The position numbers and the translations under genes are program-made. A stretch of DNA of 43,881 bases from positions 1 to 43,881 of the forward strand of contig JAJYDL010000003.1 of the NCBI GenBank assembly GCA_021777495.1, in the 5' to 3' direction. The stretch is from a bacterium (GTDB lineage: Bacteria; Patescibacteriota; Minisyncoccia; UBA6257; 2-01-FULL-56-20). The notes beneath the pieces are model-generated. The model saw only the letters and a program-made list of their open reading frames with translations, was not told where the DNA came from and searched no databases. Positions 21,416-34,237 of the stretch are shown here, one piece after another; within the stretch, counting starts at the first letter, position 1; each line of letters begins with the position of its first letter.

Positions 21416-22027
21416 ATGAAATATGAATTGCCGCAGTTGCCGTATGGGTACGACGCGCTCGAGCCGTACCTCGATGCGAGGACGATGGAGATCCATCATA
21501 CGAAACATCATCAGGCGTACGTGGATAACCTGAACGCCGCGCTCGAGAAGCACCCCGAGATCGCGGACAAACCGCTCGAGGAACTTCTGCGCGCCATCGA
21601 CACGGTACCGGAGGATATCCGCACCGCGGTTCGGAATCATGGCGGCGGACATATGAATCATTCGTTTTTCTGGACAATCATGGGGCCTGCGGCGGGGGAC
21701 GATGCGCATCCCGCCGGCAAGGTGGGGGAGATGATCGACGCGTCGTTCGGCGGATTTGCCCTGTTCAAGGAATCGTTCGCCAAAGCCGCGGCCTCGGTGT
21801 TCGGTTCCGGGTGGGCATGGCTTGTGATCGGCGCGGACGGGAAGCCGGCGATCATAACAACGCCCAATCAGGACAGTCCCCTCATGACGGGCGCGCATCC
21901 GGTGCTCGGACTCGACGTCTGGGAGCACGCCTACTATCTGAAGTATCAGAACAAGCGCCCCGATTACATCGATGCGTGGTGGCATGTGGTGGATTGGAAG
22001 CGCATCGAGGAGAAATTCACTTCCTGA
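21416..22027 (+). CDS. sodA: Superoxide dismutase (Fe/Mn family)
   Basis: [70 protein letters not shown]. Confidence 0.93.
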
Positions 22028-22054: not shown

Positions 22055-25000
22055 ATGGGTTCCCCTGCGAACAACAACAGGAGGAAATTGTTCGATGTAG
22101 GGGCCTCCCGCGCGAGAGGCCGCCGTTGGAGTTTTCTCTATGGCCGCAACGCGCTTAACCTGAGGCCCCATTTCCGCGTGCGCCATCCGTGGATCACGGC
22201 GCTTGGCGCGGTTGCGATCGTCGGGATCGTGTTCGTCGGCGTGCGTCAGTTCTCAACCCGTGCGGAGGTGAGCGATTTCTATCCGACGACGTGTCTCGGC
22301 GACTGGCAGAATCCTTCGAATGCGGCGAACCAGCCCGAAACGATGGGAGTTTCCGGCACCCCTTTCACTTCCCAGAATTCCGCCGTATTCAACGCTTCCG
22401 GCACGCAGATTTTCTGCGGAGGTTTTGTGCCGCCCGGCTTTTCGAGCTCCGGCACCATCACGAACGTCGGCCTTACTCTTGTATGGCAGGTGGGCAACGG
22501 AACCGTCGCTCCTCCTCCGGGAAGCGATACGGCCGTCACGCCATCAAGTACGGTGGCAGGGAGTACTGCTGCCGCGACCACAACCACTGCTTCGTCCTCG
22601 ATCCCGGATGCCGCCTCCGGCAGTAGTTCCTCTGCGGCAACGTCTACGACCACAACTTCCGCATCCGCTTCGACTTCAACTCCTGCTTCCGCGCCCACCA
22701 CCACTACTTCATCTCCGTCCGATACCTCGATACCACCTCCTTCTGCGACGGCTACAACTTCCGCTCCTGCTCCTGCGCCCTCATCTACGCCCACACCTCC
22801 GCCTCCGGCCCCCGCGCCTTCATCTTCGATCCCCGCTCCTGCTCCTACGCCTACCGCAACGGCGGCTTCGGGCACTTCCGCGTTTGCGGCGTTCAAGAAT
22901 CTGCTTTCCTATTTCGTGCCGCCCGCGTTCGCCGATGGAACAACCTCGCCTTCGGTTTCCGGTCCGAACGACAGTTCGACCGCCGTCATCGAGCCGCCGA
23001 TCGCCGCTTTGCCTGCATCGACAACTTCCATTTCCAGTTCCGCCGAGAGCCCCCTTCCTTCCGGAAGCATATCCCCGTCCGCGACATCATCCCCGTCCGC
23101 GGCAACCCCCGCCGCGTCCGCGCCCGACGAGAACTTCCTTCAGGTGAGCTATAGCACCGACGGTACGACCTGGATCCCCATCCAGAAAGTGAACGAAGCA
23201 AACTGGAAAGATCTCACGATCACCATTCCGGTCACCGACTGGACGGATCTTTCCAAGCTTCAGATCCGTATTGCTTCGATCCCGACTTCTCTGCAAGTGA
23301 TCCCCCCCGTCTATCTCGACGGCATGATGGTAGAGGTGCATTACGTCGTGGGCCCCATGGAGAACGGGGGAGGCGGATCATCGAATGCCACTCCTGCCGC
23401 AGCGCCTTCGGCGGCGGTTCCCGTCGTCGTGACCCATGCAACGCTCGCTCCCGTGAACGGGAAGACGAACTTCGGTGCCGATGAAGCTCCCACGTTCGAA
23501 TACAACCTGAACAGTCTTCCTACCTCCACCACATCCACGCCCGCTGCCGGACCGCCGCAGTCGTTCAATGATCTGCGCGGAAGCGGAACGCCGTCATGGC
23601 GGGATTTTTTTTATTCATTGCTTGATGGCCTTGGCTCCCGTGCCGATGCCCAGACCGTTTCGGTCCCGACGCCCACGCCGGGCAATCCCGTCGTGGCGGA
23701 GATCGACGATCCTTCCGGCAAGCCGACCGGGTTCCAGCCGGTCATTGCGACCGTCAATAATCAGCTGAACGTGGGCCTTCCCGAACCCACGACCGCATTC
23801 CGTCCCGGCCGCTATACCCTCAAGCTCTGGATCCTCCATAACGGCGTCGTCTATGCCACCGAGAACACGTTCACCTGGGGAGTGCTTGCGGTGAACTTCG
23901 ATAAGTCCCTCTATTCCCTCAACGATACGGCGCATATCGGATTCGGGGTGCTTGATGATGCGGGGAACACCGTCTGCGGCGCGCCCATCTCGATGACCGT
24001 GACCGACCCCGGAGGTACGGTGCATCAGTTCTCGACCGCCAATGGAAGCATTGCGCAAAGCCCCACATGCGGACCGGCGACCGTGACGAACGTGCCGGAC
24101 TACGCAGCCTCTATGGCGCTCCATGCCGTCGGCACCTATCGGGTCTCGGTCACCGCGCTTACGCCGGACGGCATGCGTACGTTGAGCGATCAGTTCGGCG
24201 TGCAGGATCCGCCGCTCTTCGACGTGACGCGCGACGCGCCGACGCGCATCTACCCTCCCGTTCCCTACGGCGTTTCGATTGCCGTGAAAGCAAACGCGGA
24301 TTACAACGGCACGATCACCGAAACGGTGCCGGCATCCTTCGGGATCGAGGGCGGGAATTTTTCCTCGCAATCGTCCAACGGGACGGATGTCACGCTTTCA
24401 TGGAACGCGAAACTCAAAAAAGGGGATACGATAACCCTTCACTATGTATTTAAGGCTCCCGATGTGAGTCCGGAACTTTACAAGATCGGACCGTTGCAGA
24501 TCGGTACGTGGGCGGAAACCCGCCAATGGCAGATCGCCGCGGACGCCATTGCGACGAAGCAGATCTTCATCACGAGCACCGCCTCCACCACCTGGACCGT
24601 ACCCGCGGACTGGAACAGCGCTTCGAACACGATCGAGCTGATCGGGGGCGGCGGAGGGGGCGGCGCGGGGGGTGCTGCGCAAGGCGCGGGCGGTGGCGGC
24701 GGAGGAGGCGGTGCGTATGCAAAAATAAGCAACTTCAGCGCGGCGCCGGGAACTTCGGTCAAGATACAGGTGGGCGCTGCGGGGGGATCTGCCGTTGGCG
24801 GCGCCCTTACCTATTTCGGATGGAACGGTTCCGGTGCGACGACGACGTGCAGTGCGACGACGATGTCCGCGTGCGCCGCTGCCGGCGGCGCCGGAAACTC
24901 TGCTTCGGGAAATCTTCCCGGGAACTCGGTATCGGGGGGGCTTGCGACAGGAAGCGTGGGATCCACCACATATAACGGTGGAGGCGGATCATCGGGCGGT

Positions 25001-26947
25001 GCCACGGGAGGTTCGAACTCCGGCGCGGGCGGCGGAGGAGGCGGTGCGGCAGGTTTGAATGCAGGAGGCACCACCGGTGCCGTGGGGAGTCTTACGACCG
25101 GCGGTGCGGGCGGTCAGGGTGACGGAACTTTCGGCGGTGCGGGCGGCGCGGCGGACACGGCGGGAAGCAACGGAACCGAGTGGAGTGCCTCTCCGGCATA
25201 CGGTTCCGGCGGCGGAGGAGGCGGTGCGTCGGGCGGCGGACACGGCGCGGCCGGCGTTGCGGGACAGGCCGGCGGTACGTATGGCGCGGGCGGCGGAGGA
25301 GGTTCGGGAGTCGGAAAGGGAGGGAGCGGAAGCGGCGGCGCGGGCGGCGCGGGCACGCAAGGCATCATCGTCATCACGTACACCCAGGCAGGAGTCCTCA
25401 TCGGCGACGGGACGCAGCCGGCGCCGGTCACCATCGGCCCCGGAGCAAATGCCACGACGAGCGACGCGTTCACGTTCGTGACGAATGTGGGCACGACGAC
25501 GATCACGAGCGTCACGACGACGCTTTCCACGGTGGCGGGCGTGGGACTCGTCGAGATCGCGAACAGCAACGGCACCACGATCTACGGATCGAGCACCAAC
25601 CTCGTTGCGACAACCACCGTGTTTGCGAGTACCACGTTCACCATTCCTGTGAGCGGTTTGAGCCTGAGCACCGCTACGACGACTTTTACGGTCCTCGTGC
25701 AACCGAAGAACGCGACATCCATGCCCGCGGTGCCGGGGGGCACCTATACGGTGACGTCCACCGTCACCGGATGGATCGACAGCAAAGGGCTTGCCACGGG
25801 CGGCGCGAATACCACCTCATCGGTGATCACAATCGATAATCAATCGCCCGGCAATGTAACGAATGCCACCGGTACACCCGCAAACGGGTCGGTTGTTCTT
25901 TCATGGACCAATCCCACCGACCCCGATTTCGCGCAAACCGTCGTGCTTCGGGCAACATCATCCGTTACGGTTGCGCCCACCGAGGGGACATCCTATTCGG
26001 CGGGGAACAGCATCAATGCCACGACTACGGTCGCATGCGTCGCCGCGTCGAGCACTTCGGGCTGCACCGATACGGGGCTTACCAACGGGACGTCATATTA
26101 TTACAAGATCTTCGCCCGTGATAATTTCTATAACTATGCAACGGGAACGTCCGCGGGTCCTTTTGTCCCGTCGGGAGGGGGAACGCCGGTTGTTTCCAAT
26201 CTTCTTCTGAACGGAGTCAGCGCCATCACGCTCGTGCCGAATTCCACGCAAAGCGTTTCCGTCACTGCATCCACGACCGACTCCGCCGGTCCTGCGGACA
26301 TCAAATACGCCACATCCACCATCTACCGCTCGGGCGTCGGTGCGAACTGTGCGGCAAGCAACTTGAACTGCTATCAGCTTGCGAGCTCGAGTTGCACGTT
26401 TTCGGGTTCCAGCTCCACGGTTACCTGCACTGCGAATATCGCCTATATCGCCCAGCCGACCGATACCTCCACATATGCGGGCCAGTCGTGGATGGCCGCG
26501 GTCACCGTCGCGGGAGGTGCGGGATCGGGAAGCGCCACGACGACCGGAGGGGTTACGTTGAATACGCTCCTTGCCCTCAACGTGACGACATCGTCCGTGA
26601 ACTACGGGCTTGTTGCGGCGAACGGTTCATCCGGCAATCAGACGACCACGGTCCAGAACGTGGGTAACGCCCCGATCGCCCTTTCGCTTTCCGGCACGAG
26701 CCTCGCCCTTTCCGGGAATCCTTCCGTCACCATTCCCGTGACCGCCGAGCAGTATTCCACGACGACGTTCGCATGGGGTGCCGCCGCGCAGCTCGGCATC
26801 GCAACCTCCACGGTGCCGGGATTTTCCCTCGCGGCGCCCACTACGACGACCACCACCGTCCAAGGGAACATCTTCTGGGCGATCGGCGGGTTCATTGCGC
26901 CCACGGGGACCTATAACGGCACGATCTCCTTCACGGCGTCACCTTAG
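22055..26947 (+). CDS. Giant (1630 aa) modular surface protein
   Basis: N-terminal TM ITALGAVAIVGIVFVGV; PAST-rich linker; Gly-rich domain (TWTVPADWNSASNTIELIGGGGGGG...); Fn3-like region; C-terminal anchor-like module. Confidence 0.8.
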   Translation: MGSPANNNRRKLFDVGASRARGRRWSFLYGRNALNLRPHFRVRHPWITALGAVAIVGIVFVGVRQFSTRAEVSDFYPTTCLGDWQNPSNAANQPETMGVSGTPFTSQNSAVFNASGTQIFCGGFVPPGFSSSGTITNVGLTLVWQVGNGTVAPPPGSDTAVTPSSTVAGSTAAATTTTASSSIPDAASGSSSSAATSTTTTSASASTSTPASAPTTTTSSPSDTSIPPPSATATTSAPAPAPSSTPTPPPPAPAPSSSIPAPAPTPTATAASGTSAFAAFKNLLSYFVPPAFADGTTSPSVSGPNDSSTAVIEPPIAALPASTTSISSSAESPLPSGSISPSATSSPSAATPAASAPDENFLQVSYSTDGTTWIPIQKVNEANWKDLTITIPVTDWTDLSKLQIRIASIPTSLQVIPPVYLDGMMVEVHYVVGPMENGGGGSSNATPAAAPSAAVPVVVTHATLAPVNGKTNFGADEAPTFEYNLNSLPTSTTSTPAAGPPQSFNDLRGSGTPSWRDFFYSLLDGLGSRADAQTVSVPTPTPGNPVVAEIDDPSGKPTGFQPVIATVNNQLNVGLPEPTTAFRPGRYTLKLWILHNGVVYATENTFTWGVLAVNFDKSLYSLNDTAHIGFGVLDDAGNTVCGAPISMTVTDPGGTVHQFSTANGSIAQSPTCGPATVTNVPDYAASMALHAVGTYRVSVTALTPDGMRTLSDQFGVQDPPLFDVTRDAPTRIYPPVPYGVSIAVKANADYNGTITETVPASFGIEGGNFSSQSSNGTDVTLSWNAKLKKGDTITLHYVFKAPDVSPELYKIGPLQIGTWAETRQWQIAADAIATKQIFITSTASTTWTVPADWNSASNTIELIGGGGGGGAGGAAQGAGGGGGGGGAYAKISNFSAAPGTSVKIQVGAAGGSAVGGALTYFGWNGSGATTTCSATTMSACAAAGGAGNSASGNLPGNSVSGGLATGSVGSTTYNGGGGSSGGATGGSNSGAGGGGGGAAGLNAGGTTGAVGSLTTGGAGGQGDGTFGGAGGAADTAGSNGTEWSASPAYGSGGGGGGASGGGHGAAGVAGQAGGTYGAGGGGGSGVGKGGSGSGGAGGAGTQGIIVITYTQAGVLIGDGTQPAPVTIGPGANATTSDAFTFVTNVGTTTITSVTTTLSTVAGVGLVEIANSNGTTIYGSSTNLVATTTVFASTTFTIPVSGLSLSTATTTFTVLVQPKNATSMPAVPGGTYTVTSTVTGWIDSKGLATGGANTTSSVITIDNQSPGNVTNATGTPANGSVVLSWTNPTDPDFAQTVVLRATSSVTVAPTEGTSYSAGNSINATTTVACVAASSTSGCTDTGLTNGTSYYYKIFARDNFYNYATGTSAGPFVPSGGGTPVVSNLLLNGVSAITLVPNSTQSVSVTASTTDSAGPADIKYATSTIYRSGVGANCAASNLNCYQLASSSCTFSGSSSTVTCTANIAYIAQPTDTSTYAGQSWMAAVTVAGGAGSGSATTTGGVTLNTLLALNVTTSSVNYGLVAANGSSGNQTTTVQNVGNAPIALSLSGTSLALSGNPSVTIPVTAEQYSTTTFAWGAAAQLGIATSTVPGFSLAAPTTTTTTVQGNIFWAIGGFIAPTGTYNGTISFTASP

Positions 26948-26988
26948 CGTGGTTCCGAGTTATCCACAACGGCGACCATACCGTCGTC

Positions 26989-26997
26989 TGGTATAAT
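26989..26997 (+). promoter_or_regulatory. Extended -10 promoter (TGGTATAAT) upstream of the 27025 gene
   Basis: TGGTATAATG, then an approximately 20-nt leader with AAAGGA Shine-Dalgarno. Confidence 0.55.
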
Positions 26998-27024
26998 GAA
27001 TGCATTGAAACTAAAAGGATTTTT

Positions 27025-27987
27025 ATGGATATACAGCGCATAGAGCGGAGGAGGATGATAGGAACGGCGATTGCCGTGGTGTTTATCTCTGCCGGAATCG
27101 GTTTTTTCGGGCATGTGGTATTCGGGGCGAACGTATCAAGCTCCGTTGTCGTCACGGCGACGGCGCCTACGATGGGGACGGTGACGGTGAACGGGGGGAA
27201 TAATATCACGCTCAGTCCCGGAGGGACCGTGGCGGTTCCCGTGACCGCACAGGTGAACGATTATAACGGCTGCACCGACTTCAGTTCGGGCACCACGACC
27301 GTCGCGCTTTGGTATTCCGTGGCGGGATCCTCCACCTGCCTTTCGGGCGGAGCGCCGGGGAACCTCAATACGTGCTATGTCGCTACGGCATTCACCACGT
27401 CGACCTGCTCCGGTTCCATTGCAAATACGACGACGACCTTCAATATGGAATATTTCGCGAAGGCGACCGATGCCTCCTCGAGCGTGCCGAGCGCAAACTG
27501 GCGCGCCACGGTGATCTTCAAAGCACCCTCGGGTTCCACGACGAGCGCCGATTCCGCCTCCGGCACCACGCCCGACGTGCTCACGCTCCTTGCGTTCAAC
27601 CTTTCGACGAGCACGATCAACTACGGAAACGTAGGTGCGGGGGCCAACACCGGGGCCACCAATCAAAACGTGAATATCCAGAATTACGGCAATTCGACCG
27701 ACGGATCGTATCTCTATGGCACCGCAATGCTGAATGCGGCATCGAGCACCCTCTCTATGCCGACTTCATCCCAGCTGTATGCAACGACGACTTTCAATGC
27801 AGGTTCGGCGGGGACGCCCCTTTCGGATGTGGCGACCACGCAGATCACCGGTTTTTCGCTCACTGCGCCCACGACAACCTCTGTAGTAAGCAGTTCCGTA
27901 TACTGGGGACTCAGTGTTCCGGGCGGGACTCCGACGGGAACCTATAACGCCACAAACACCTTCAGCGCCCTCTTCGTTTCATCATAA
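27025..27987 (+). CDS. Secreted surface protein sharing the C-terminal module of the giant protein
   Basis: Signal/TM IGTAIAVVFISAGIGFFGHVVFG; C-terminus resembles residues near the end of the 22055-26947 product. Confidence 0.7.
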   Translation: MDIQRIERRRMIGTAIAVVFISAGIGFFGHVVFGANVSSSVVVTATAPTMGTVTVNGGNNITLSPGGTVAVPVTAQVNDYNGCTDFSSGTTTVALWYSVAGSSTCLSGGAPGNLNTCYVATAFTTSTCSGSIANTTTTFNMEYFAKATDASSSVPSANWRATVIFKAPSGSTTSADSASGTTPDVLTLLAFNLSTSTINYGNVGAGANTGATNQNVNIQNYGNSTDGSYLYGTAMLNAASSTLSMPTSSQLYATTTFNAGSAGTPLSDVATTQITGFSLTAPTTTSVVSSSVYWGLSVPGGTPTGTYNATNTFSALFVSS

Positions 27988-28056
27988 CGGCGGTTCCCGG
28001 GCCTTGTCCCGGGAGTCCGGAGGGGATACTATATCGAAGACCCTCACACTCGCACG

Positions 28057-28977
28057 ATGAAACGCTCCCCCTATCTCATTCTCGTCCCCGCCTTCATCCT
28101 TGCAGCCGCAGGCGGGTTTTTCCTTTCTGCGCCGCATGCGGAAGCCGCTTTCGGCATCTCGCCGCCGTTCATCAATGCATCCCATCTCGTTCCCGGCATC
28201 ACGTATTCGCAGACCCTCTATCTTGTCCGCGATGACGCTTCCTCGGGCCTTCCCGTTACGGAATCGCTTACAATTCCGCAAGCGGTCCAGGGATGGGTTT
28301 CTCTCGATCAGCCGGCTAATTTCACGATCCCGACCGATACGCGCCAATTCCCCGTTACGGTGACCATCAAGGTTCCTTCCGGAGCGGCGGACGGGACCTA
28401 TAACGGCAATCTTTCCTTTACGACGATGCCGAATCAGAATGGCGAGGTTTCGGTGGCTCTCGGCGTGAATGTTGCGCTGAATTTGACCGTAGGAAGCGAT
28501 ACCTTCGAACAGTATTCGGTTCCTCTCATCAATATCCTCGATATCGAGGAGGGATGGAATCCGAAGGTGTATGTGAAGTTCGACAACCAGGGGAACGTTC
28601 CCGAGGCGTTCGACGGCGCTACTTTCGAGCTCTATGACCAGTACGATTCGGTCCGGCTCGCGTATCTGCAGCTGCAGAGCGGTTTTCCTTCGACGCCCGC
28701 GTTCACGACCAAGGATTACACCGTGGAATTCCCGTCGGATTTCCATCTCGGCGTGGGAAGCTATTGGGGGAATGTCACGTTCTATAAGAACGGCAATCCC
28801 GTTGCAAGCCAGAAGATGGCGTTCCGCGTCCTTCCTGCGGGAACCCTTTCGGGATGGTGGGGGCTCGTATCCTATAAGATAGAGAGCAACATCTGGAGCA
28901 TTGTCGCGGCGATTGCGATCATCGTTGCCGCAATCCTTTTCATCGTCCGTCGCCGACATCGCGCCTATGGCGGCTAG
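28057..28977 (+). CDS. Membrane-anchored Ig-like surface protein ('GISPP' type)
   Basis: Signal peptide; FGISPPFINASHLVPGITYSQTLYLVRDD; beta-sandwich-like repeats; C-terminal TM plus RRRHR stop-transfer. Confidence 0.75.
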   Translation: MKRSPYLILVPAFILAAAGGFFLSAPHAEAAFGISPPFINASHLVPGITYSQTLYLVRDDASSGLPVTESLTIPQAVQGWVSLDQPANFTIPTDTRQFPVTVTIKVPSGAADGTYNGNLSFTTMPNQNGEVSVALGVNVALNLTVGSDTFEQYSVPLINILDIEEGWNPKVYVKFDNQGNVPEAFDGATFELYDQYDSVRLAYLQLQSGFPSTPAFTTKDYTVEFPSDFHLGVGSYWGNVTFYKNGNPVASQKMAFRVLPAGTLSGWWGLVSYKIESNIWSIVAAIAIIVAAILFIVRRRHRAYGG

Positions 28978-30172
28978 GATAGGAAAGGCCGCGGCGTCCA
29001 TCATTGCCGTATCCGCGATCGTATGGAGCGGCCTCTTCATGGCGGCCGTGGATTCCCATGCGGCATCCGTCGGCGCATCGGTCCGCATCGTGGTCTTTCC
29101 GAGCGCCCCGAGCAATCTGAGCGCCATTCCCGCGTCCCAGCAAAGCATCCTTCTTTCGTGGACGAACAATGCCGCAAACAATACGGGATTTGCGATAGAG
29201 CGTGAAGCGGGTTCCTCGGGCTTTTCGGAGATCGCCACGGTGGGCTCGAACATCGCCCAGTATGCCGACACCGGACTGATCCCGAATGTGCTTTACTCGT
29301 ATCGCGTCGCCGCATTCAATAATGATGGGTTTTCCCCTTACAGCAATATCGCCACCGCTACCATCGTGGCGGTCATTCCTCCTTCGGGTGGCGGAGGAGG
29401 GAATGCGACGGTAGGCGGCGGCGGGGGCGGGTATTTCCCCTCAGCGTCCCAGGCTCAGGCATCTTTTAGCGGGCTCGCATATCCCATGAGCGCGGTTTCG
29501 CTTCTTGAAAATGGCCAGATCATCGCGACGACGACCGCCGGCGCCGATGCGAAGTTTTCGTTCTCCATCGCGAACATCACTCCGGGCGCGAATGATTTTA
29601 CGGTGTCCGCCGTGGATCCGAACGGCATTCCTTCGCTTCCGCAGACCTACCGCATCTCCATGACCGCCGGCGCGGATACGATGGTGAGCGATATCGTATT
29701 CCCTCCCACCATCAATACCAACAGGACCGAAGTAAAGAAAGGCGATTTTGTGACGCTTTTCGGATACACCGCGCCCGCAAGCACGGTCACGATAACGGTG
29801 CATTCCGCATCCGCGCTTACGGTCGAAACCTCTTCGAATGCGGAAGGGGCATGGACCTATGCTCTCGATACGTCGGCGCTCGCATACGGGGACCATACGG
29901 CAGTCGCATCTTTCGCCATGGGCGCGGGTACGGCGATATCATCCGAACTCCTTGCGTTTTCGGTGGGGGACGCGAACGTCGCCGCACCGGCCGTCCATTC
30001 CGGGGCGCTCAGGGGGGATCTCAACCATGATGGAAGGGTGAACCTCATCGATTTTTCTATCATGGCGTACTGGTACGGAAGGCCGAACCCTCCCGCATAT
30101 GTCGATCTGAGCGGGGACGGAAAGGTCGATCTCACCGATTTCAGCATCCTCGCCTATTATTGGACCGGCTGA
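28967..30172 (+). CDS. Secreted Fn3 protein with C-terminal type I dockerin
   Basis: Signal peptide; Fn3 (PSAPSNLSAIPASQQSILLSWTNN...); two Ca-loop repeats GDLNHDGRVNLIDFSIMAYW and VDLSGDGKVDLTDFSILAYYW. Overlaps the previous CDS by 11 bp. Confidence 0.85.
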   Translation: MAARIGKAAASIIAVSAIVWSGLFMAAVDSHAASVGASVRIVVFPSAPSNLSAIPASQQSILLSWTNNAANNTGFAIEREAGSSGFSEIATVGSNIAQYADTGLIPNVLYSYRVAAFNNDGFSPYSNIATATIVAVIPPSGGGGGNATVGGGGGGYFPSASQAQASFSGLAYPMSAVSLLENGQIIATTTAGADAKFSFSIANITPGANDFTVSAVDPNGIPSLPQTYRISMTAGADTMVSDIVFPPTINTNRTEVKKGDFVTLFGYTAPASTVTITVHSASALTVETSSNAEGAWTYALDTSALAYGDHTAVASFAMGAGTAISSELLAFSVGDANVAAPAVHSGALRGDLNHDGRVNLIDFSIMAYWYGRPNPPAYVDLSGDGKVDLTDFSILAYYWTG

Positions 30173-30200
30173 CCTGCCCCGCACAACACACGCCATTCCC

Positions 30201-31061
30201 ATGAATCTCCATTGTTTCCGCCGATATTTCCTTGCCATGCTCGCGTGCGTCGCCGGATGTTTTTTTGCGGCGATGCCCGTGCGTGCCGCGGTGATCACCG
30301 TATCCTCCGGGACGATCAGCATAGATACCCAGGGACAATCGGTGAACGCGATCGAGCTCCATCTTTCCTTCGATCCCGGGAAGGTTGCCGTCACGGGCGT
30401 ATACGACGGAGGGTCCATCATCGATTTCTGGGTGGAACCGCCGTCCGTTTCGAATGCATCCCATACCATCGATCTCGCCGGCATCATTCCCGGAGGGCTT
30501 ACGACATCCGACGGAAGGATCGCATCGTTCACCGCGGTCCCCGCGGGACCAGGCGGTATTCCGGCGAGCTTCGGTACGGTTTCCGCAAAGGTGCTCCTCA
30601 ATGACGGAAAAGGGACTCCCGCGACGGTCGCCGTCGTGAGCACCCCTTTCGTTCCCGGCACGCAGACCTCTTCGCCCCCCGTTCCGGATATCACCCCACC
30701 CGATCCTTTCGTGCCCCAGATCGGGCGCGATCCGGCTGTTTTCGGTGGAGCATGGTTCGTCGCGTTTTCGACGACCGATCCCCAATCGGGCATCAATCAT
30801 TATGAGATCATGGAGGGATCGGATACGGTCTGGCATGCCGCCGTATCGCCGTACCGGCTTTCGGATCAAAGCCTTTCGAGCAATATCTATATCCGCGCGG
30901 TGGACAATGCCGGAAACTTCCGCATCGTCGAACTGCCCGCCGCCCATCCGCGCACGGGCGCTCCGGCGGCGGATCGGATCGCCGTATTTATCGCCGCATG
31001 CGCTATACTATGGATAGGTATATTCGCGATCGTATGGATGTGGACACGAAGACGGCACTAA
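30201..31061 (+). CDS. Membrane-anchored cohesin-like domain protein
   Basis: Signal peptide; AIELHLSFDPGKVAVTGVYDGGSIIDFW...LNDGKGTPA cohesin-like pattern; C-terminal TM and RRRH tail. Confidence 0.75.
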   Translation: MNLHCFRRYFLAMLACVAGCFFAAMPVRAAVITVSSGTISIDTQGQSVNAIELHLSFDPGKVAVTGVYDGGSIIDFWVEPPSVSNASHTIDLAGIIPGGLTTSDGRIASFTAVPAGPGGIPASFGTVSAKVLLNDGKGTPATVAVVSTPFVPGTQTSSPPVPDITPPDPFVPQIGRDPAVFGGAWFVAFSTTDPQSGINHYEIMEGSDTVWHAAVSPYRLSDQSLSSNIYIRAVDNAGNFRIVELPAAHPRTGAPAADRIAVFIAACAILWIGIFAIVWMWTRRRH

Positions 31062-32503
31062 CGGTACGGGGTATCGCGGTCCTTGCGGGAGCGTTCGCTG
31101 TGGCGGCGCTCTTTTCCATGCCCCGGCACGCCGCTGCGGCAACCCTCGATCTCACTCCCGCTTCGGGGACCTATTCGGCGGGGCAGTTGTTCGATGTGAG
31201 CGTCGATGTGTCATCTTCCGATGCCGCGGTGAACGCGGCCCAGGCGACGATCTCTTTTCCTCCCGGTACCCTGAACGTCGAAGGGGTTTCGGAGGATGGT
31301 TCGATCGCGAATCTGTGGGTGCAGCAGCCCTCCTATTCGAATACCGCGGGGACCGTTTCCTTCGCCGCGGTGACGGTGAATCCCGGGTTCACCGGCCCGG
31401 CGGGACATCTCATCACGATCACGTTCCGTGCGGAGGCTCCCGGCAATGCGGAAATAGCGTTCGTGTCCGGCGCCGCGCTCGCGAACGACGGCAAGGGAAC
31501 GAATATCCTCACGGGCATGAACGACGCGCAGGCGACGATCGCGCCGGCGGGCGGATCTTCCGCGTCATCCGGCCCCGCGCCCGCGGGCGCGGGGCGTCCT
31601 CCCCTCATCGTATCGGTTCCCGCGGTGAACGACCGGGACTGGTACAATCTCGATTCGATAACCTTTTCATGGACGCTTCCTCCGGGAACGACCGGCGTGA
31701 ACTATGCCATATCGAACGATCCCGGATATCAGCTTTTGGAGCGGCCCCAAGCCCCCGTTTCAAGCGCGACCTATAATCTTAGTACGTTCGCGGACGGCGT
31801 CTGGTATTTCTATGCGAGCGTGGATCGCGGCGGATCGTGGTCGCCCGTCGCGGAACGCATCCTCCGTCTCGACCGTACGCCGCCCGAGCCGTTCGTTATC
31901 GTGCAGCAGAACGCGGGTCCCTCCGCTGCGGCGTCCCGGCCCGTGTTCCAGTGGGTGGCCACCGACAATATGTCCGGAATCGCGTACTATCGGGCGAAGA
32001 TAGGCAGCGGCGACTGGTTCGATCCCGCGTCGATCGAACAGGACGGACTGTACGTACTGCCTCCGCAATCGACGGCGCTTTCCCGGACGCTTACGGTGCG
32101 GGCGTACGACAATGCCGGCAATTACCGCGAGGAACAGGCCGTATTCTCCGTGCTTCCCTCCGGATGTGCGGGGAATGCGGCGTGGTGTTCGGTCGTCATC
32201 TTTTCGGAATGGAACTGGTGGTGGATGGCGCTCATCCTCCTCGCGCTCTATCTCGCCGTGCGTCGCATCACGGTCCTCAAAAGGAATATGAAAAAGGAGC
32301 TCGTGCGTTTCGGCAGCGCGCTCGAACGCGATCTTCGGAGCATGGAGGCGGATAGCGGCAAGGACGTCCGCGTTCCGGGAGCGGGGACGGAGAGGTCCGG
32401 AACCCCTGCATCCGTCGGGCGCGAGGAAGGAAATATGCAAAAGGCCGCGGACACGGTCCGCGACAGGGTGCGCGAAGAGCTGGATGCGATCGACCGGCTA
32501 TAG
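31034..32503 (+). CDS. Membrane-anchored cohesin-like domain protein with cytoplasmic tail
   Basis: Signal peptide; LDLTPASGTYSAGQLFDVSVDVSSSDAAVNAAQATISFPPGTLNVEGV...LANDGKGTNIL cohesin-like; TM WWWMALILLALYLAV; approximately 90-aa charged tail. Overlaps the preceding gene. Confidence 0.78.
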   Translation: MDVDTKTALTVRGIAVLAGAFAVAALFSMPRHAAAATLDLTPASGTYSAGQLFDVSVDVSSSDAAVNAAQATISFPPGTLNVEGVSEDGSIANLWVQQPSYSNTAGTVSFAAVTVNPGFTGPAGHLITITFRAEAPGNAEIAFVSGAALANDGKGTNILTGMNDAQATIAPAGGSSASSGPAPAGAGRPPLIVSVPAVNDRDWYNLDSITFSWTLPPGTTGVNYAISNDPGYQLLERPQAPVSSATYNLSTFADGVWYFYASVDRGGSWSPVAERILRLDRTPPEPFVIVQQNAGPSAAASRPVFQWVATDNMSGIAYYRAKIGSGDWFDPASIEQDGLYVLPPQSTALSRTLTVRAYDNAGNYREEQAVFSVLPSGCAGNAAWCSVVIFSEWNWWWMALILLALYLAVRRITVLKRNMKKELVRFGSALERDLRSMEADSGKDVRVPGAGTERSGTPASVGREEGNMQKAADTVRDRVREELDAIDRL

Positions 32504-33340
32504 GTCCCGCGGCCGCTCTCCCTCTCTTTGGACCTTCGTAAGGCGAAGCGCACCGCGTCCGTCGCGTTCCGCGGCAAGGAGCTTCGTCCGTGCGCCATCC
32601 TTCATCGTCCAGCATCCCGGTTCGGGCGAGAATGCGTTGATCATATGGAGGATGCGGGAGGCCCCTTCGCCCCCGTGCGCAACGGCGGCATCGAGGTCCG
32701 CCGCATCGACGAATGCATCGGCGGAGGCGAACTTTTTCGTGAATGTGGCGGCTGCGTGGTCCTGGGGATGCGCGTCCGCGGTCCCGCCCATGAACGCGGG
32801 GAGCGTTTCCGCAAGGAGACCGCCGCAGAGCGTTGCGAGCCTCTCTTCGAGGCCGGTATACGTCTCCGTATCGGGATCAAAGGGCAGGGATCGCTCCGCA
32901 AGGACGGGGCCGTGGTCCATCTTGGCATCCATGAGGTAGATCGTGCCGCCGGTTTTGTGTTCGCCCGCGAGGATTGCCGATTGTATGGGCGATGCGCCGC
33001 GATATTTCGGAAGGAGCGACGGATGGACCCCGAGCGTGCCGAGACGGGGGATATCGATCACCGCTTGCGGGATTATTTTCGCGTATGCGGCAACGGCGAA
33101 CGCGTCCGGCGCGAGCGCGCGGAGCGATGCGGCGAACGCGTCATCGAGCGATTCCGGCTGCAGTACCGCGATGCCGTGCTCGCGGGCGAGCGCTTTTACG
33201 GGGGGCTCGGTGAGGATCTTTTTGCGTCCCGCGGGACGGTCGGGATTGCAGACCACCGCGGCGGGCGGCATTCCCGCGTCGATCATCTTTTCAAGGACGA
33301 TCGACGCGAACCGGGGCGTGCCGAAAAATACGTAGGTCAT
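32498..33340 (-). CDS. fmt: Methionyl-tRNA formyltransferase
   Basis: VFFGTPRFA, GVHPSLLPKYRGASPIQSAIL, GGTIYLMDAKMDHGPVL. Confidence 0.95.
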   Translation of the reverse strand: MTYVFFGTPRFASIVLEKMIDAGMPPAAVVCNPDRPAGRKKILTEPPVKALAREHGIAVLQPESLDDAFAASLRALAPDAFAVAAYAKIIPQAVIDIPRLGTLGVHPSLLPKYRGASPIQSAILAGEHKTGGTIYLMDAKMDHGPVLAERSLPFDPDTETYTGLEERLATLCGGLLAETLPAFMGGTADAHPQDHAAATFTKKFASADAFVDAADLDAAVAHGGEGASRILHMINAFSPEPGCWTMKDGARTKLLAAERDGRGALRLTKVQREGERPRDL

Positions 33341-33362
33341 CGTGCCGTCGTCGCGCTGTTTT

Positions 33363-33875
33363 TCATGACGTTTCCTCGTTGTGCACCTTCTTCGCGCGGT
33401 CGATGAACACCTTTCCGTCCAGATGGTCGCATTCGTGCTGGAACACGCGCGCGAGGAGTCCCCATGCCTTGATCTTCAGCGGCTTGCCGTTCTTGTCCTC
33501 GCCCCTCAGCGTGAGCTGCTGCGCCCTTGCGACGTCGCCGAACTTTCCCGGAATGCTCAGGCATCCTTCTTCGGAGGTCTCGGTCTCGGCGCTCACTTTT
33601 TCAAGCTCGGGGTTGAATACCGCATAGAATTTGAGGCCGCCGTGCGCATCGGGAACCTCCGCCACGAACATCCTGAAGTCGAGCCCGATCTGGTTCGCGG
33701 AAAGGCCTATGCCGTTCGCTTCGCGCATGATGCGCCGCATGCGGGCGACGAGCTCCCGTATTTCCTTCGGGGTGAACGCGGAAAAATCGAACGCCTTCGT
33801 CCGCGTGCGGAGGATCTTTTCTCCTTTCGGATCGGAAAGGAGGACCATTTCGGGGGGGGTGTGCGCGGCGCTCAT
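33363..33875 (-). CDS. def: Peptide deformylase
   Basis: NGIGLSANQIG, EEGCLSIPG, FQHECDHLDGKVFIDR. Confidence 0.95.
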   Translation of the reverse strand: MSAAHTPPEMVLLSDPKGEKILRTRTKAFDFSAFTPKEIRELVARMRRIMREANGIGLSANQIGLDFRMFVAEVPDAHGGLKFYAVFNPELEKVSAETETSEEGCLSIPGKFGDVARAQQLTLRGEDKNGKPLKIKAWGLLARVFQHECDHLDGKVFIDRAKKVHNEETS

Positions 33876-33889
33876 TGGGATATTAAAGC

Positions 33890-34237
33890 TTATTTGCCCG
33901 TTCTTTGTCCATTGCGCCTCCTTGTTTCCTTCTTTTCGTTCTTTTCCGCTTCGCCGATGCGGGCGGCCGATTCCTGTTTGAGGATCGCCATGAAATACGC
34001 GCCTTTATTCTTCACTTCATCGCGCGTGGCGACGTCCTTTGCGAGCGCGAGCATCCGGTCCGCGCCGCCTTCTTTGGCAAGCTTGATATAGAGCGCTTTG
34101 TGCCGTTCGTCGCGGAGGATTTCGGATATCTCAAGGCCGATGAGCTGGTATTTCCGGTATACGTGGGATTCCTTTCCCCGCCGCGCGAGCTCGTCCATAT
34201 ACGCCTCCCTGAGGCTTTTCCCCGTTTTTTTCGGCAT
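33890..34237 (-). CDS. Hypothetical 116-aa basic protein
   Basis: MPKKTGKSLREAYMDELARRGKESHVYRKYQLIGLEISEILRDERHKALYIKLAKE...; ATG 34237 lies 8 nt after TACAAT and follows GGAAG. Confidence 0.65.
   Translation of the reverse strand: MPKKTGKSLREAYMDELARRGKESHVYRKYQLIGLEISEILRDERHKALYIKLAKEGGADRMLALAKDVATRDEVKNKGAYFMAILKQESAARIGEAEKNEKKETRRRNGQRTGK

Follow-up and report, generated by a model that had tools for sequence, protein, structure and literature searches.

Introduction

Pairs of cohesin and dockerin domains outside cellulosomes are already known according to PMC9012536, which cites Peer et al. 2009, and the same paper cites reports of specific binding by archaeal non-cellulosomal pairs. 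The non-cellulosomal modules of Archaeoglobus fulgidus, ANME archaea and Clostridium perfringens, which Peer et al. 2009 reviewed, share with the operon described here that they stand outside cellulose degradation. In the Parcubacteria, however, the modules recur in a fixed operon which combines a secreted dockerin adhesin with one or two single-cohesin transmembrane anchors and which often has a WxLIP-like gene upstream. The anchoring scaffoldins of the clostridial cellulosomes likewise are cohesin-bearing surface anchors that take up a dockerin-bearing partner. In contrast to these, the operon of the window has neither listed glycoside hydrolases nor a multi-cohesin scaffoldin, the anchor is a C-terminal transmembrane helix and the P0003-type anchor carries a cytoplasmic tail. 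To our knowledge, a cohesin anchor that crosses the membrane once and bears a charged tail in the cytoplasm is unlike the known cellulosomal anchors.

Two further systems have to be compared. The WxLIP proteins are membrane proteins with two Ig domains that belong to the WxL clusters of Gram-positive bacteria and have been proposed to link the bacterial and the host surface (PMC10599100). In these clusters (PMC10599100; csc clusters PMC1534035), as in our operon, a protein with two Ig domains and a transmembrane segment is encoded beside larger secreted proteins; on the contrary, no WxL domain was detected in the S5 and S6 proteins of our operon, dockerin and cohesin genes are added and the lineage is Patescibacteria. 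SEML1_0315, a dockerin protein of the epibiont Southlakia epibionticum, is reported to be essential and has been proposed to target host glycans (PMC10633639). It is likewise a patescibacterial envelope protein with a dockerin, but comes from the Saccharibacteria and not from the Parcubacteria, and the paper mentions no cohesin.

The parcubacterial operon is best read as a new variant of a non-cellulosomal cohesin–dockerin system, and no description of it in Parcubacteria was found in the open-access literature searched. Parcubacteria have small genomes, and their means of holding on to other cells are mostly unknown. A conserved operon of modular adhesin and anchor is a concrete candidate for parcubacterial attachment. 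It also calls for caution, as cohesin and dockerin matches in CPR genomes need not mean cellulose degradation.

Organization of the operon

The window, that is the whole analysed stretch of 43,881 nucleotides, belongs to a genome of ∼700 kb in 40 contigs (∼76% complete), in which the operon lies on contig C4. The nearest named relative is a 'Candidatus Parcubacteria' MAG (81% identity in P0003). The operon spans positions 22055–32503 with all genes on the plus strand in the order P0006, P0005, P0004, P0001, P0002, P0003; it is preceded by a superoxide dismutase gene (21416–22027) and followed by a convergent methionyl-tRNA formyltransferase gene. The original prediction had placed the operon at 28967–32503. 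The genes of this region do belong to it, but the operon also takes in 22055–26947, 27025–27987 and 28057–28977. The coordinates and both gene overlaps had been given correctly: the dockerin gene P0001 starts at 28967 and shares 11 bp with P0004, which stops at 28977, and 28 bp are common to P0002 (stop 31061) and P0003 if the latter is started at 31034. With an alternative in-frame ATG at 30998 the latter overlap amounts to 64 bp; the start of P0003 is probably 31034, 31010 or 30998.

P0006 (S6, 22055–26947) is an open reading frame for a surface protein of 1630 aa with an N-terminal hydrophobic segment (residues 44–67) and a glycine-rich middle, besides which it also has a long Ser/Thr/Pro-rich stretch. 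P0005 (S5, 27025–27987), an open reading frame for a secreted protein of 320 aa, is a paralogue of the last ∼260 aa of P0006, where the S5-family profile matches at 1370–1629 (E 7e-79). P0005 ends in the motif WG(L/I)xVPxGxxxGTY, which is like WxL motifs by resemblance only. The C-terminal WGL.VP motif had suggested S5 and S6 to be WxL proteins, an assignment which the Pfam and PDB searches did not support: no WxL domain was found in the family, nor any Pfam match or relevant PDB match. A WxL cluster comprises at least two WxL-domain proteins, and S5 and S6 are without a WxL match in Pfam or PDB.

P0004 (IGTM, 28057–28977) has a signal peptide, two Ig-like domains and a C-terminal transmembrane segment (residues 275–300) and is WxLIP-like by its family profile, whose best PDB match is EfmWxLIP1 (9i25_C, E 2.3e-4) over columns 44–233 (190 columns). 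A WxLIP is defined by a DUF916 (PF06030) and a DUF3324 (PF11797) domain together with a C-terminal transmembrane segment; PF06030, the WxLIP peptidoglycan-binding domain, is matched weakly by 8 of 23 relatives of P0004, and P0004 itself matches no WxLIP family in Pfam. Among 151 genomes of the order, 43 of 55 WxLIP-like matches (29 of 35 genomes) have a co-oriented cohesin gene within 8 kb downstream. Seen from the other side, a WxLIP-like gene stands directly upstream in 28 of the 63 loci that have a dockerin and a cohesin.

The dockerin protein

P0001 (28967–30172) consists of a signal peptide, Fn3, Big_6, Big_13 and a C-terminal type I dockerin, all four domains exceeding the Pfam cut-off. 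Its hydrophobic stretch is N-terminal only, with no transmembrane segment past the signal peptide, and the protein appears to be secreted and adhesin-like. The dockerin (30014–30169; residues 350–396 of 401) matches PF00404 with 34.1 bits against a cut-off of 22.9 and has two 12-residue calcium loops, DLNHDGRVNLID and DLSGDGKVDLTD, which bears out the two-repeat dockerin that had been predicted at the end of a secreted Fn3 protein. Among 51 dockerin relatives the loop pattern D-x-N-x-D...D is intact in all first loops and in 49 of the second loops, and in nearly all loci the dockerin forms the final ∼50 residues of the gene.

At positions 10, 11, 17 and 18 the two dockerin repeats of one protein agree with each other more than in a shuffled control. 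We take positions 17 and 18 to be recognition positions as well. Positions 10 and 11 are described as such, and symmetric dockerins of this sort have been described with dual binding (PMC8063739). At the recognition positions the two dockerins of contig C35 of the same genome have the residues LYYWG/LYYWT and LFHWG/LYNWT versus AYWYG/AYYWT in P0001.

In 51 dockerin proteins encoded beside cohesins, the dockerin is accompanied by Big, Fn3, TIG, MBG, laminin-like/lectin-like and similar modules. The only clear enzyme among the 25 of 29 families listed for these proteins is a single GDSL lipase, and no glycoside hydrolase is among these listed families.

The cohesin proteins

P0003 (COHb, 30998–32503) comprises a signal peptide, a cohesin, Ig-like domains, a transmembrane segment and a charged cytoplasmic tail of ∼73 aa. 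The cohesin (31145–31510) is matched by the family profile with an E value of 2.3e-47 and by PF00963 with 29.4 bits against a cut-off of 24.1. The COHb family profile finds 7urp (E 0.0011) and the scaffoldin cohesin 4uyp (E 0.0048) in the PDB, and a phmmer search of the PDB with the single P0003 sequence gave no match. An AlphaFold model of the domain is of low confidence (pLDDT 45), so that its matches, 48 of the 50 best in the PDB by Foldseek being cohesin entries, count as support only.

P0002 (COHa, 30201–31061) comprises a signal peptide, a putative divergent cohesin, an Ig-like domain and a C-terminal transmembrane segment (residues 256–282) with the cytoplasmic tail nearly absent. It matches neither a cohesin nor any other family in Pfam. 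The lineage cohesin profile recognizes it with an E value of 3e-29 (2e-21 in the genome search), its N-terminal domain and the P0003 cohesin are homologous, and hhalign aligns the two family profiles, COHa and COHb, with 100% probability (E 3e-39). In addition, a PDB search with the COHa profile yields cohesins (E 0.0012) and 11 of 31 P0002 orthologues do match Pfam Cohesin. Judged by these profile comparisons P0002 is probably a divergent cohesin. Compared to P0003, ∼10 residues are missing near the first strands, where most P0002 orthologues are longer too; P0002 may for this reason be a degenerate or altered cohesin, and divergent and truncated as it is, it may not bind.

The original prediction of two cohesin-like proteins thus holds by Pfam for P0003 and by family profile, with no Pfam match, for P0002, and the signal peptide and C-terminal transmembrane segment that it assigned to both were seen in both. 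The expected cohesin fold was recovered with low confidence by structure prediction for P0003; the model of the P0002 cohesin region, which was calculated with no alignment and has low confidence (pLDDT 57), has no cohesin among its PDB matches and was set aside as uninformative on the fold.

Throughout the lineage a transmembrane segment follows the cohesin in 93 of 108 cohesin genes, whereas a segment of this kind past residue 80 is found in only 2 of 67 dockerin genes. This distribution indicates that the cohesin is the membrane side and the dockerin the secreted side. Short and long cohesin proteins differ in their tails: in the short ones (n = 37) the tail is nearly absent and never reaches 40 residues, and 47 of the 57 long ones have a charged cytoplasmic tail of at least 40 residues. 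A profile made from the tails of the long proteins matches cohesin genes in 43 of 45 cases. The tails of these relatives are conserved, charged and helix-like, measure ∼75–80 aa and belong to no known family; the tail in the window has diverged. This tail (32282–32500) is charged and reaches a score of 3.7 with the profile of the relatives' tails, which is not significant, and therefore we claim tail homology for the relatives alone.

Conservation of the gene pair

In the 151 genomes of the order Pfam cohesins are present in 45 and Pfam dockerins in 62 genomes. Of 62 Pfam cohesins 39 have a Pfam dockerin no more than 5 kb away, in every one of these 39 cases in the same orientation and in 36 of them on the upstream side, so that the synteny in related genomes which the original prediction had proposed as a check was indeed found. 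By chance a dockerin would be expected nearby for ∼2% of the cohesins, a rough estimate in which neither gene duplication nor shared descent is considered. The adjacency of dockerin and cohesin exceeds chance. With lineage-trained profiles both domains are detected in 63 of 83 loci, a biased rate as the loci had been preselected for a cohesin or dockerin match. The gap between the dockerin gene and the next cohesin gene is mostly below 100 bp, the order dockerin then cohesin is kept in many families of the order, and in an even draw of 287 Patescibacteria genomes the pairing occurs in at least 20 genomes. The distances between dockerins correlate with those of both cohesins (r 0.52 and 0.55) and not with those of the WxLIP-like neighbour (0.15), a mirror-tree correlation which for dockerin and cohesin is confounded by phylogeny. 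No relative of the cohesin family was found in the viral contigs searched.

In the source genome there are three dockerins and four cohesins in all; they include two further dockerin–cohesin pairs on contig C35, at 24000–34000 (L006) and 38000–49000 (L007). Both of these loci (G000:C35) also include WxLIP-like genes. Within the genus 2 of 8 genomes carry the system, namely the source genome (G000) and G006. It is accordingly accessory, which is more in keeping with an adhesin than with a core envelope layer.

Proposed function

We suggest that the operon serves the calcium-dependent, non-covalent and non-cellulosomal anchoring of secreted adhesins in the membrane, a reading which is based on sequence comparison and to which we assign a probability of about 0.72. 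P0001, bearing Fn3/Ig modules of the adhesin type, would be secreted, and its dockerin, folded around two calcium ions, would plug into the extracellular cohesin of P0003, of P0002 or of both. The two cohesin proteins would be held in the cytoplasmic membrane by their C-terminal helix, and P0001 would thereby be retained on the cell without the need for a sortase. No sortase was found in the source genome; as this genome is ∼76% complete and a sortase is present in 17 of 61 relatives, this absence is weak evidence. The WxLIP-like P0004 and the S5 and S6 proteins would probably be part of the same complex. A self-contained non-cellulosomal set had been predicted: comparison with relatives upholds the membrane-anchored cohesins and the secreted dockerin, but the WxLIP-like gene, S5 and S6 upstream and the tail of P0003 had been missed. 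The sequences themselves show the gene content, the identity of the domains, the topology of anchor and ligand and the conserved gene order; we infer that the dockerin would bind one or both of the cohesins in a calcium-dependent manner and that the system would have a role in attachment to other cells or surfaces. As to a host, attachment is suggested only by the domains of adhesin type and by what is known of how other Patescibacteria live; the essential dockerin protein in a studied patescibacterial epibiont (PMC10633639) makes it plausible. A more far-reaching proposal, which we consider doubtful, is that secreted P0001 is captured by P0003 as a receptor whose charged helical tail links the contact to the cell interior alongside the WxLIP-like complex, which would make the operon a device by which episymbiotic Parcubacteria attach and sense independently of a sortase.

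Dockerins and cohesins are classical components of cellulosomes, and in a CPR member (Shapirobacterales) transcripts of both have been read as a cellulosome (PMC9123182). The operon could then encode a minimal cellulosome, in which the cohesin proteins display a complex that degrades carbohydrates and includes the dockerin protein. Yet a catalytic gene is absent from the operon, in which Pfam finds no carbohydrate-active enzyme, as had been noted before; the families listed for the 51 dockerin proteins likewise show no dockerin-bearing carbohydrate-active enzyme, the one GDSL lipase being the only clear enzyme among them, and the cohesin proteins of the window have one cohesin each, with Ig-like modules only and no carbohydrate-binding module. 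With Ig, Fn3 and lectin-like modules in the place of listed glycoside hydrolases and with no multi-cohesin scaffoldin, a cellulosome is highly improbable. Another explanation would be that the Ig-like and EF-hand-like domains are stalk modules which do not bind each other, and that a single envelope layer is built through other contacts, for example by the WxLIP-like, S5 and S6 proteins. The many beta-sandwich modules in every subunit, the divergence of the P0002 cohesin and the frequency with which a WxLIP-like gene precedes the cohesin genes would fit such a layer. However, the dockerin strictly retains its calcium loops and its position at the C-terminus, while the remainder of the protein varies, and many loci with a dockerin and a cohesin do without a WxLIP-like gene directly upstream, so that we consider this explanation unlikely. 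It is also conceivable that the dockerin pairs with cohesins of other loci or of other cells and not in cis, as the genome has two more dockerin–cohesin loci whose recognition residues differ. Against this, each locus has a dockerin and a cohesin of its own side by side in one orientation, and the distances of dockerin and adjacent cohesin co-vary; pairing of this kind is therefore very unlikely. Membrane anchoring of the adhesin by the neighbouring cohesins remains our preferred reading.

Other arrangements of the domains

Some genomes deviate from the simple gene pair. G327 has 19 dockerin matches and zero cohesin matches. In other Patescibacteria several dockerin matches follow in a row on one contig (G219:C27, G246:C33/C36, G220:C7), and G219 and G246 each have a reading frame of 945–969 aa with two cohesins, the frame of G219 additionally with a dockerin; judging by these frames, other members of the phylum may have scaffoldin-like systems. 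Small proteins of relatives (L088:6476–7168, L082:300–1367, L080:9504–10208) each contain a cohesin and a dockerin and could polymerise if the domains bind each other. Finally, a frame of 491 aa (L130:5531–7003, genome G128) downstream of a WxLIP-like gene contains a dockerin and immediately after it a cohesin and is apparently a fusion of the two partners.
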